The notes under the pieces: model-generated
Told to the model about the DNA's origin: nothing
The model's input: the letters and a program-made list of their open reading frames with translations, nothing else
Databases searched by the model: none
Translations under genes and position numbers: made by a program
From: Planoprotostelium fungivorum
Taxonomy: Eukaryota > Evosea > Variosea > Cavosteliida > Cavosteliaceae
DNA length: 28,639 bases
Direction: 5' to 3'
Assembly (NCBI GenBank): GCA_003024175.1
Contig: MDYQ01000302.1
Coordinates: 1-28,639, forward strand
In this document: piece by piece, positions 12,028 through 16,431 of the stretch
Layout: each line of letters opens with the position of its first letter
How positions within the stretch are numbered: the stretch's first letter is position 1

Positions 12028-12033
12028 TTTATT
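12028..12033 (-). terminator. AATAAA overlapping the carboxylesterase stop codon
   Basis: The minus strand reads GTTTAAATAAATGG. The last A of the TAA stop is the first base of AATAAA, a canonical poly(A) hexamer. Confidence 0.6.
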
Positions 12034-14301
12034 TAAACTAGAAGGGATACAAAGACGACGATCGAGAAGAGAGCGAAGGTCAACCGAGCACCTATCTTCA
12101 GTGAGATCGAGAGGATATTGTGATCCTCACCGTCATTCGAGTTTGTGGGAGGATTGTTCGATGTGACAGAATTCGTGAATCCCGTTGCTGTGGCCGAAGC
12201 ACTGGAGGTTCCTCCTGTTCCTGTTGCTGTGACTGGTGTGTACGTGTTCATCAAGAGAGGCATGATGAGATCGCAGCTGAGGATTTGTCAGAGGGAACAG
12301 ACAAGAAGGCTCACGTGGCCAGCCTGGGAAATGGACCACTGAAGGGAGAGACTCCACCGATGTAGAAGGTGTTGTTATTTCCCTGAGAGTAAGGCTGCCA
12401 GTCCGCCCCCGGGCTTCCGGTGTTCTGGAACGATTCAAAGTGATCGACGAAGATCTGAGAGACTAATCCGTCGGTATCACCTCCATTGAAACTGCGAGAG
12501 GTGAGAATTTGAGAGTAAGTATGTGAGATTGTAAGGAGAAAGTGTGAGAGAGCGTAAGGGAGGTGACTCACAATTTGGTGTTGTTCCAAACGAAAGCGAT
12601 CTCGTAAGAGTGGTACGTGCCGAGGCGCGTGTTGTTGTTGTAGTAGAAGTAGTAAGTGAAAACGCTCGCGTTATTTGCGACGGCAAACTCGGCTAAGCCC
12701 AAGTTTCCGCACTTGATGAAGTAGTCTCCAATGAAATTGGCCCACACGGGGTAGACTGAATCCGTACTGACAGAATGTGAGATGGAATCGATGAGTGAGA
12801 GAACTCACTTGACATTCGGGCTCACTGGCCACCTCTGAGGGAAACCGTAAGCGGCGGCAAGTTGGTTGGCGTAAGTGGGATCGACGTTGTATGCAAGATT
12901 CAAACTCTGAAAGACTCCTTGTGCGGTCAAATTGGCCGTCGCGGCGTAAGAACCAGATCCCAAGGTCGTTCCCTCGTTCGCGTTGATACCAATGATCAAC
13001 TCCACATTGGGCTGCGCGGGTCACTCAGATGTGAGACATGAGATGATCGTGGAGATTCGAATGATGTTACATGGAGCATATGAATGTTCTCAGCGAATGA
13101 TGTTACATGGAGCATATGAATGTTCTCAGCGAAGATTTCACCTTGAACTTTCCGGCTCTCCACAAGTTGAGAGGTTGATCGGTGATGAGGGTTCCATCGA
13201 TGACGGGCTGTCCGAAAGGAACGGCGGGGATCTGTCTGAGTCAATCTCTTCCAATCTCAAGTCTCTCACGTTGGCCAGGAGGTCGACAGATAAACCTTGG
13301 AGGCAGGCCAGATCGCAATTGCTGAGGCCCAATGAGTTCAACAGATAGTCATTGAGTGCGGTGAGTTGCTGAGGAACGTGAGTCACACGAGAAGGAGGAG
13401 TGAAGGTCTTCACCTTGATGGTGCGGAAGTTCCAGGGGCCACCGGACTCGATGATGGCGCGTCTGAAGTAGGGCCAACTTCCGTTCATCAGGAGTTGGAA
13501 ATTGACGCTGGATCCTCCAGCGGATTCACCGAAGATAGTGACGTTGTTGGGATCACCTGCTCAAGTTTCAGTGGCCATGATGTGATGATGTGATTAGAAG
13601 ACCTCCGAATGCGGCGATGTTCTCGTGAGTCCATCTCAGAGCGGTCTGTTGATCGAGAAGTCCATAGTTTCCTGTAGAGCTAGAGTTGATGGTCGTAGTG
13701 CTAACAAAGAAACCCAATATGCCGACACGATAATTCGATGCAACGACTATGGTGTTGGTCTGGGCGGCCAGAGCAGTTCCATCGTAGTATCCATCGCTGT
13801 AATAATCTCCACTAGTGTAGGAACCTCCCTGTTTGACGTGTCAAAATGCGATTAGAAGCGGTACTGATCGATTATTGGCTTTGTGTTCTCACATAGATCC
13901 AATGTCTGACGGGTAACTTCGAGGTGTTCGTCGCTCCAGGTGGGACGTAGACAGCGAGGTAGAGACAATCTTCCGATCCGGCATTGACAGACTGAATGCA
14001 TTCCGGAGCATACTGTGTTCCATTGTAGAATTGGTTGGTATCATTCAGGTATATGGGTGCCTGCACGTTCGTTACACAAGCACATGCAATTGTGATTTAA
14101 AGGTGATATGTTTTGATCTCTCGCCTTGAGTCGGAGAGAGCCAACAGGTGGCCTTGCAAAGGGAATCTTTCTGTAGACATTGACTCCACCCGATACAGCC
14201 ACACCGACTACGGTGTTGTTACCTGGGTACGTCACAGTGGGTTCTTGGGCCAACACCGCAGCTAGCGTCACGATCAGGAGGGTGATGATGGAGGTCAGCA
14301 T
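12033..14301 (-). CDS. Secreted type-B carboxylesterase (cholinesterase-like), 573 aa, with C-terminal hydrophobic tail
   Basis: Ten exons join without a frame break: 14301-14125, 14060-13893, 13828-13603, 13556-13414, 13368-13270, 13231-13142, 13011-12809, 12766-12572, 12491-12315 and 12276-12033. It hydrolyses carboxylic esters outside the cell. The start at 14301 begins a signal peptide ([19 protein letters not shown]). Family landmarks in order: [28 protein letters not shown], the oxyanion region WIYGGSYTSG, the nucleophile elbow GESAGG, the acid in GINANEG and the catalytic His in [11 protein letters not shown]. The Ser-Glu-His triad is complete. The third glycine of the usual GGG is Ser. 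The tail is Ser/Thr/Gly-rich and ends in [16 protein letters not shown], like a GPI-anchor signal or membrane anchor. Intron 1 (14124-14061) uses a GC donor. Substrate cannot be told; the divergent neighbour suggests a role in polymer breakdown. Confidence 0.9.
13058..13129 (-). repeat. 36-bp tandem duplication inside a carboxylesterase intron
   Basis: The unit CGAATGATGTTACATGGAGC plus 16 further bases occurs twice without a difference, at 13058-13093 and 13094-13129. Both lie in intron 13141-13012, which at 130 nt is the longest of the gene. Confidence 0.95.
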
Positions 14302-14648
14302 GCTTTCGGCTTCCTCTCCTCTCTTTCTTCGACGAAATGAGCCAAGAGGCACCCGAATTACCATCCATCACGTGACGGCAATTGTTCCGTTTTTTTTTGG
14401 TCCTGGGGCGGTAGAGTTGTTGTTTTGAGAGCGACTGTCGGGGCACCTCGTCTGCAGGTTGCCCTCACTCTTTACTCAGCTGACCGGTTACTTTGCCGTA
14501 CGCTGATATGTGTGGGGTAAAGAGTGGCAGCCTCTTACAAACCTCCGTCGCGGAAGTGGAATGAGCAGGTGCGCACGCAGTGGACCAGGGAAGATAATCT
14601 GCTCTTGATAAGTACAAAGCACCTCCACAATGCGGACAAGGCTGATGA
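14302..14648. other. Region between the divergent esterase and AA14-like genes
   Basis: This stretch should hold the promoters of both neighbours and the missing first exon of the AA14-like gene. It has a CACGTGA box at 14370 and a T-run at 14391. I found no signal-peptide-like frame that splices cleanly to 14649. A plus frame starting at 14524 continues to 14766, but in the wrong register for the downstream exons. Confidence 0.4.
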
Positions 14649-16431
14649 AGTGACGATGAAGCCCGACAATCAGAGATCTTGTGGGAGGCTCCTCAGAATC
14701 AAGCTATTCTTACTTATGCTGTTAGGCATCAAAATCACGAATCAATTCTTCCTCATGTGTATTTAGGGCCCATGAGTGCTTGGAACTTTTCGAGCTGGTG
14801 GTTTCACGGCAACATCGATTCCCCTCCCCCGAAGGGAGTCGTGAGTCGACAACACTTGTAAGGCAAAACTCAAGATGATGGCAGGTGTTCAACCTTCCCG
14901 CCAACGGACAGGTCTACACCACTCTGTTCACCGGCCTTCCTAGGACTCAACCCACAGTGCCAGACCCTTGGCATGAATTTGGACGTGAGAAGATGCCTGC
15001 GGACGATAAAATCGACTCACAATCGCAGTTCTCCACACGCCCTATCGCAATAGCACCAGAGGTTGTGCCTTGGCCATCGCGTGAGGGTCTCTCGTCGCTC
15101 GAGCGTCGACACATCATCTGACATGAAGACAGATACAAGTCTGACCCCAAGCAAGTGACCGTCAAAGACTTTGTCGTCTTCTCTGTGAGTGATTCGCCTT
15201 CTCGTCTCCCCACTGATGCATAGCCAACAGGTGGTCCATGACTACATCAAGCAACAGAACCAATCTTTCTCCATTCCCAACCTGCCCAGCTGCCCCAACG
15301 GACAGTGCCTCTGCTTCTGGCTGTGGCACGCTCAGGGACGCTCCGATCAGTTTATGACTTCACTTGCAACGTGACGGGTGTCCATTCTGGTGCCCAGCCC
15401 ATCGATTATGCCAGAGCTCAGCCCGCAAGAAAATGCTACAACTCATCGAGATGCTACCAAGGACCCAGATATCCTTACTACTACGGCCAACTGCAGGGTG
15501 AGACGACGCATGGCTTGCCTAGTCTTGACATCATCGTCAGGTAGCAACATGCCCGAGGGCCCTCATCAGCCCCCTTACTATTCTATACTGTACGGATGGT
15601 CTGAGGGAGCTCAGCACGACATCTTCGTCAACACGAACCCGAACACCTTCCAGCAAGTACCTCTGCCCGCCGAGCAGAGATGTGTGAATGCCACGCTCAA
15701 CCCTCACAATCTAGGTTCTCGGGTCATGAGCAACAATGCATCCACCTACATTAACGAGAGCAAGTGAGTGACGATACTGTACGCCCTCCGAGAGGTTCAC
15801 ACTTCTCAGCATCGGTGGTATCATCTCTCCCAACTGCCTGTGGAAATTTTACGCGGAGAAGGGATCTGGTGTGATTCAGATGGTCAGCACGTTCAACTCG
15901 TCCCAATTGTACCGAATCGGTACCTCGGTAAGGAGCCCTTACCAGTTACAAGTCAGCCCCCTCGGTGGTATCTGCCTCAACGGCGCGAACAGCACCTCCT
16001 GGTGCGTTCAGAACATAGAGCAGGGACCTTTCCACCTCGATATCACGGATGACGGCATGCTGACGCTGACGGATAGCATGGGAATGCACAGATGGGAGTC
16101 TACGTTCAAGTGAGAGCGATGAGCTATCGTAGATGGAGGCTGACGAGAGAGTAGAGATAACAGAGAAGATCAAGTCAATCCGTGGGACCCCGATCCAGCT
16201 ATCTGGAAGACATAGTGAGGCGTGTATTAACGAACATCAAGATCTGACAGCGCCAGCGATGACGTCACCGAAACTTCTATCAATAATGTGGCTGGTTCGA
16301 GCACAATGGTCTTGGGTACATCGACTGGCGGTTCGTTGCGGTGCACCGGATTTCTGGCTCTTGCAGTTGCTCAAAAGCAGGAGAGGAATAGTGGAAGATA
16401 TCAGTCCATAGATCCAGGGGTGTCGGTCTGA
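14649..16431 (+). CDS. AA14-like copper oxidase (LPMO family) with C-terminal lectin-like segment; one frameshift
   Basis: Exons 14649-14840, 14885-14984, 15029-15080, 15133-15184, 15231-15497, 15541-15763, 15810-16109, 16164-16214 and 16251-16431 give about 472 residues. The first exon lacks an ATG, so a 5' exon with the signal peptide is missing from my model. Segments match a family of fungal secreted proteins that I recall as AA14 xylan-acting lytic polysaccharide monooxygenases: SSWWFHGNIDSPP, FNLPANG, RGCALAIAYKSD, VKDFVVFSV, CPNGQCLCFWLWH, FTCNVTG and GSNMPEGPHQPP with YGWSEGAQHDIF. The His of WWFHG is a copper-ligand candidate; the N-terminal His cannot be placed. Beyond residue about 260 an extension includes ITDDGMLTLTDSMGMHRWES, like one blade of a bulb-type lectin. 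The tail is Ser/Thr-rich. Between QFMT and FTCNVTG (about 15,355) one base seems missing. The esterase diverges from this gene. Confidence 0.75.

Follow-up and report, generated by a model that had tools for sequence, protein, structure and literature searches.

Contig MDYQ01000302.1, a stretch of 28,639 nucleotides that was analysed as a whole and is called the window below, carries a carboxylesterase gene on its minus strand and, divergently on the plus strand, a coding sequence resembling AA14-type lytic polysaccharide monooxygenases (LPMOs). The question raised by this locus is whether the two neighbours form a functional pair served by one upstream region, as the original prediction from the window proposed. 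In LPMOs the signal peptide is cut before an N-terminal histidine (His1), and His1, a second histidine, and an axial aromatic residue make up the copper site with which polysaccharides are oxidised. To place the window copy among its relatives, AA14 loci were sought in the window contig's own assembly (36.86 Mb, 471 contigs, named C30, C62, C118 and so on) by protein search and Pfam model search, followed by spliced models; the number of loci given below is a lower bound. We hold with good confidence that the AA14 sequence of the window is a dead, 5′-truncated duplicate lying beside an unrelated esterase, and that its relatives form an expanded family most likely working as copper LPMOs.

The AA14 copy and the region between the two genes

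The AA14-type assignment of the window sequence was borne out. The coding sequence matched the Pfam model LPMO_AA14 with 138.1 bits (E 6e-40), against a cut-off of 27, and the solved fungal structure 5no7 with an E-value of 2.5e-26, both scores being computed on a read-through with an X at the frame break described below. The genomic stretch 15255-15746 by itself gave 51.5 bits to the same model.

The gene did not prove to be complete, however. By blastn, the window DNA was 90.8% identical to C61 (over 14752-16364) and to C30 (over 14752-16361), and 77% identical to C62 (over 14752-16268). In the models of C30 and C62, exon 1 encodes a hydrophobic, signal-peptide-like stretch directly before the histidine, and exon 2 is short. 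In the window, similarity to these models begins no earlier than 14752, a position within their intron 2, and the exons that encode the signal-peptide-like stretch and His1 are therefore missing from the copy. Neither a signal peptide nor an N-terminal histidine, the first copper ligand, was found at the window copy, where exons 1 and 2 of C30 and C62 have no counterpart. Absence of this histidine had been named in the original prediction as an observation that would refute it.

Seven exons are retained between 14767 and 16113, coding for an AA14 domain and a further C-terminal one, and they also show damage. The fifth retained coding exon has 267 bases, compared with 271 in C30, C61, and C62, and the four missing bases break the reading frame, so that no uninterrupted frame runs through the copy. 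In the alignment, tyrosine stands in place of a near-invariant cysteine. When changes over 353 codons were assigned to branches with C62 as the outgroup, the window branch received 12 non-synonymous and 15 synonymous changes, against 2 and 22 for C30 (Fisher p 0.005), with 12 differences left unassigned; this pattern suggests relaxed selection on the window copy. Since it has no signal peptide, no N-terminal histidine, and a broken frame, the copy would be incapable of giving a working enzyme, and is probably a dead leftover.

Several observations weigh against this reading. The numbers in the branch comparison are low, and the break in the frame might have arisen in assembly. About 150 bases upstream of the copy (14572-14723) found no other match in the DNA comparison, and a frame from 14656 contains a hydrophobic stretch, which makes a new first exon conceivable, though no His1 follows it. 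The window copy could be a working gene if the apparent break came from assembly and if secretion and His1 were supplied by a first exon newly recruited from the esterase upstream region; the remaining retained exons are open and have GT-AG splice sites. We consider this highly improbable. No frame with a signal peptide ending before a histidine was seen by eye in the 470 bases upstream, and the frame from 14656 runs for 36 residues to a stop at 14764-14766 and is out of frame with 14767. Decay would account alike for the absent exons, the 4-base deletion, the loss of the cysteine, and the excess of amino-acid changes, and a collinear AA14 copy on contig C118 is reduced still further.

The same contig revealed to which gene most of the DNA between the two neighbours belongs. 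On C118, the 5′ portion of this esterase gene (98.7% identity over window positions 13149-14571) stands with no AA14 gene beside it. Upstream of the esterase, the window is 93% identical to C118 over 14324-14571 and 91% identical over 14724-14757, and the junction with the C30-like fragment falls at 14752-14757. C118 (28001-58151) is collinear with window positions 13149-22226 at 91-99% identity outside the place of the AA14 copy; the far side covers 16406-22226, where the compared piece ends. Between these flanks, C118 holds about 21.5 kb, in which 111 bases of AA14 sequence were found, versus a 1.6-kb AA14 fragment in the window. The two contigs could represent separate haplotypes or have arisen by recent duplication; the pairs C30/C61, C35/C112, and C119/C90-end likewise have the appearance of duplicate or allelic contigs.

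A bidirectional promoter pair would be expected to keep the intergenic region together with both genes, and no such conservation was found. The upstream region of about 350 bp that the pair had been thought to share is mostly the esterase's own DNA, and about 470 bases separate the esterase ATG (14301) from the first apparent ATG of the AA14 copy (14772). A tblastn search (E ≤ 1) with the N-terminal 238 residues of the esterase gave no hit in 15 genomic pieces of 3.5-9 kb each, with short gene flanks, that cover the other 22 AA14 loci. A shared promoter or co-regulated pair was rejected, because the esterase and most of its upstream DNA stand on C118 without AA14 and no esterase was found in these short-flanked pieces around the other AA14 loci; the two genes show no sign of having been kept together as a pair. 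With His1 absent from the window copy as well, the proposed functional esterase-AA14 pair could not be upheld. The fragment would be a 5′-truncated duplicate of a secreted AA14 LPMO gene that was moved beside an unrelated, intact esterase gene. Because its introns are kept, the route would have been a rearrangement at the DNA level. The lesson of the window is one of caution: gene neighbours here are not a functional pair.

The AA14 family, its appended domains, and its likely function

The genome contains at least 23 AA14 loci on 14 contigs, 22 of them outside the window. All four spliced relatives tested, of the 22, exceeded the LPMO_AA14 cut-off (C134, 187.7 bits; C90, 231.5; C62, 181.5; C427b, 146.5), and unspliced exons of the other relatives did so in the genome profile search. 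C90 aligned with 5no7 from residue 1 (E 3.5e-43). Copper ligands were compared in an alignment of 22 loci with 5no7, comprising the window copy and 21 relatives, of which eight have models that do not reach a start codon; C61, the model of which shows His1, was left out. The second histidine is present in 22 of 22 loci and His1 in 21 of 22, the window copy being the exception; in all 21 relatives His1 follows a signal-peptide-like stretch (judged by eye, as were the GPI-like and upstream-frame readings in this study). The axial residue is tyrosine in 19 loci and phenylalanine in two (C30 and C62), and the window copy has none. About twenty of the relatives appear intact.

In the C30/C62 clade, the WIH stretch beside the axial phenylalanine has also been lost, the other 19 aligned relatives having tyrosine. 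According to the part of a review that was available (PMC13353379), the axial residue is typically tyrosine in AA9 and AA14, and phenylalanine in AA10 and AA15. The C30/C62 clade may differ in redox behaviour. C61 is 96% identical to C30 and may be its allele; it shows a one-base frame break relative to C30 (C61:80510-80731), which is either real or an assembly error near the contig end.

The catalytic domain is the one known from the fungal AA14 enzyme PcAA14B (PDB 5no7; CAZy AA14; Pfam PF22810): the profile is the same, and His1, the second histidine, and the axial tyrosine align in 19 of 22 loci, the window copy differing by its missing His1 and its broken frame. The family is larger than in wood-decay fungi, which are described in the available text of PMC10885436 as having 1-4 AA14 genes each, and it bears additional C-terminal domains in a genome of amoebozoan appearance. 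A sub-threshold Pfam match of the Toxin_cobra type in the AA14 proteins was taken as chance arising from cysteine spacing.

Models and translations revealed a related C-terminal domain resembling bulb-type lectins in 15 of the 23 loci. A profile built from 11 of these 15 domains, that of the window included, matched pyocin L2 (1.6e-11), pyocin L1 (2.1e-11), and 1bwu (5.9e-8), which we take to be garlic agglutinin. At the level of the family profile, the domain is therefore homologous to solved lectins of the bulb type (monocot mannose-binding lectins, Pfam B_lectin), with E-values from 2e-11 to 6e-8. It differs from them in being fused to an LPMO and in falling below the Pfam cut-off when single sequences are used. 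Against the B_lectin cut-off of 32.4 bits, C134 gave 20.4 and C90 gave 16, and C62 had no match at E ≤ 0.1; the C-terminal piece of the window had no Pfam match at E ≤ 1, and the C427b sequence that was tested is without such a domain. These scores weigh against the lectin assignment, as does the structure predicted for the lectin exon from a single sequence, which was poor (mean pLDDT 49.9). C134 keeps a stretch that presumably corresponds to the QxDxN motif of these lectins, and the remaining ten domains of the alignment have changes in it.

By their translations, at least five other loci (C427a, C427b, C427d, C203, and C207) end in a PAN-like domain instead. One piece of the C427 type scored 26.3 bits to PAN_1, above the cut-off of 21.4, and two pieces of C207, at 20 bits, fell short of the PAN_4 cut-off of 27. 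Neither kind of end was seen by eye in C216a and C362. In fungi, the available sections of the literature describe AA14 proteins without CBM1 (PMC10885436) and AA14 proteins with disordered tails, consisting of a single module followed by the tail (PMC8615602). A C-terminal region without assignment was present in 72% of AA14 proteins, and most, not all, of these regions were predicted to be disordered (PMC8615602). Folded domains within the unassigned tails of fungal AA14 proteins are possible, since not all of the tails are predicted to be disordered.

On the basis of these features, the relatives are predicted to be secreted; once the signal peptide is cut, His1 and the second histidine would hold one copper ion together with the axial tyrosine, or phenylalanine in two of them, and this site would oxidise a polysaccharide chain. 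The appended mannose-lectin-like or PAN-like domain would keep the enzyme attached to its target. What the analysis shows directly is that the proteins belong to the family, which ligand residues and C-terminal domains they have, how the genes are modelled, and that the window copy has lost exons and frame; from these we infer secretion, copper binding, catalysis, and the target, which may be food or the organism's own wall polysaccharide. An attached domain of mannose-lectin-like or PAN-like type hints at a target surface rich in glycans, for example a fungal wall or that of the amoeba itself.

It is also conceivable that the family is AA14 by descent without being an oxidase, and serves as a copper- or carbohydrate-binding surface protein in the manner of the LPMO-like X325/Bim1-type proteins. 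X325-type proteins, which resemble LPMOs in structure, function in copper handling (PMC10166503, in its available part), and the activity of fungal AA14 is itself disputed, as Tuveng et al. failed to detect the proposed xylan activity (reported in the available text of PMC10885436). We judge this alternative unlikely, because His1, the second histidine, and the axial tyrosine are all present in 19 of the 22 aligned loci, the four relatives tested match AA14 (in a comparison with the AA14 profile, not with X325), and a lectin or PAN domain fits a polysaccharide target.

Beyond the working copper LPMOs that we favour, a wider scenario can be offered tentatively. An amoebozoan lineage may have made AA14, commonly regarded as a fungal family, its main LPMO arsenal. 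Some 20 copper oxidases would be secreted and guided by the mannose-lectin-like or PAN-like domains fused to them, and would break the walls of food, such as mannan-coated fungal cells, or remodel the cyst or stalk wall of the organism itself; the window would hold one copy that is dying by rearrangement. A search of the genome with LPMO_10 gave no match, the same search being positive in one of 14 control genomes. A search for AA9 gave no match either, but the controls were equally empty and the search was possibly blind. In fungi, both the activity and the substrate of AA14 are disputed. A large set of diverged AA14 enzymes with carbohydrate-binding-like domains, from a lineage outside fungi, would provide natural variants with which the true substrate could be sought, and would extend what is known of LPMO families among phagotrophic protists.

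Host lineage and origin of the family

The original prediction pointed out that AA14 is known mainly from fungi and would be notable in this genome, whether by transfer or old inheritance. An AA14 family in a genome that does not look fungal is supported by the 23 or more loci together with the markers of the host. When the class II myosin of the genome was compared with PDB sequences, the top block scored 462 bits and the next group 335 (among the best 60 of 150 matches); we take the former to be Dictyostelium and the latter to be vertebrate smooth muscle. The fungal-type zinc cluster Zn_clus gave only seven matches in the genome, which is few for an ascomycete or basidiomycete. The ribosomal protein uL3 leaned slightly against an amoebozoan host, with 565 bits to sequences that we presume to be fungal, 547 to presumably mammalian ones, and 514 to 5an9, presumably of Dictyostelium. 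Taken together, the genome is very likely amoebozoan.

The AA14 contigs could nevertheless be fungal contamination, or the genes a recent transfer from a fungus, as AA14 has been described from fungi in the literature and uL3 is slightly nearer to the fungal-labelled sequences than to the others. We find this quite improbable. The 23 loci are spread over 14 contigs, and the trinucleotide make-up of 12 sets of AA14 contigs correlated with that of the window at 0.86-0.94, compared with 0.76 for the myosin II locus and 0.83 for the uL3 locus, a weak control because these two loci are mostly coding. Contamination is unlikely because the 12 AA14 contig sets compared share the window's trinucleotide make-up and lie on many contigs. 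Long internal branches separate the AA14 subfamilies in the tree, lectin and PAN fusions are not mentioned for fungal AA14 in the available parts of PMC10885436 and PMC8615602, and myosin II is by far nearest to Dictyostelium-type sequences. The tree included 5no7 as the single fungal AA14, and its end branch was too long for it to be placed.

AA14 was also sought in other sources, with limited reach. A pattern scan gave 172 pattern matches in viral contigs and 18 in contigs of prokaryote genomes, with none confirmed in either set, and the LPMO_AA14 Pfam search was positive in none of 14 control genomes. In the open-access literature, to which the search was confined (subscription papers and database annotations lying outside its scope), no paper joining AA14, lytic polysaccharide monooxygenase, and amoeba was found.

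The esterase gene and other features of the window

The features of the locus are collected in Table 1.

Table 1. Positions of the genes, exons, and intergenic DNA in the window, with the AA14 loci of the genome
Feature	Position in window	Strand	Basis
Truncated AA14 gene duplicate, likely pseudogene	14752..16364	+	blastn to C61, C30, and C62; other DNA at both flanks
First retained AA14 coding exon, equal to exon 3 of C30; first apparent ATG at 14772	14767..14840	+	Spliced alignment
AA14 coding exon	14885..14984	+	Spliced alignment
AA14 coding exon with retained second copper histidine, aligned to H99 of 5no7	15029..15080	+	Spliced alignment, ligand table
AA14 coding exon	15133..15184	+	Spliced alignment
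AA14 coding exon with frame break near the axial residue and Cys to Tyr change	15231..15497	+	Length comparison, alignment
AA14 coding exon, end of catalytic domain and linker	15541..15763	+	Spliced alignment
Last exon, bulb-type-lectin-like C-terminal domain and stop	15810..16113	+	Spliced alignment, profile of 11 such domains
Upstream region, mostly the esterase's; not an AA14 5′ end as in C30/C62	14302..14757	.	C118 match
Type-B carboxylesterase gene, ten exons, about 570 aa	12033..14301, including stop	-	Spliced model without stop or frame break
Esterase product: hydrophobic signal-peptide-like start; Ser (GESAGG), Glu (NEGT), His (YHSYE); Ser/Thr-rich C-terminal stretch; hydrophobic tail			
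AA14 loci: window, C30, C61, C62, C445, C415 (four), C452 (three), C216 (two), C207, C90, C134, C427 (four), C362, C203			

The esterase half of the prediction, a protein with a signal peptide and a full catalytic triad, agreed with our model, in which all ten exons are open. The product scored 294.4 bits to Pfam COesterase (PF00135), its best solved relatives are cholinesterases, and its Ser/Glu/His triad aligned with that of the cholinesterase 6emi. Judged by its sequence, it is an intact type-B carboxylesterase of the general type. It differs from type-B carboxylesterases and cholinesterases in its C-terminal tail, which by eye resembles a GPI signal, and it is probably located at the cell surface. 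The donor of exon 1 is uncertain, being either the GT of the model or a GC slightly later. A second Pfam match, which overlaps the first but is weaker, is to BD-FAE (33-35.5 bits, cut-off 26.8) and makes a hemicellulose substrate possible. The PF00135 search of the genome gave 42 matches on about a dozen contigs, and the window esterase is therefore one of several.

Three minor features were noted. A 36-base unit occurs as two tandem copies in an esterase intron (window 13059-13130, by eye), near the place in the window at which contig C118 ends. Window positions 17872-18700 are part of a repeat family; apart from the collinear copy on C118, which is 99% identical, they recur at ten further places in the genome with 67-87% identity, and an open frame lies within this stretch on the minus strand (17888-18589). 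A further minus-strand frame, at 21212-21529, resembles what we take to be the mitochondrial glycine cleavage H protein.

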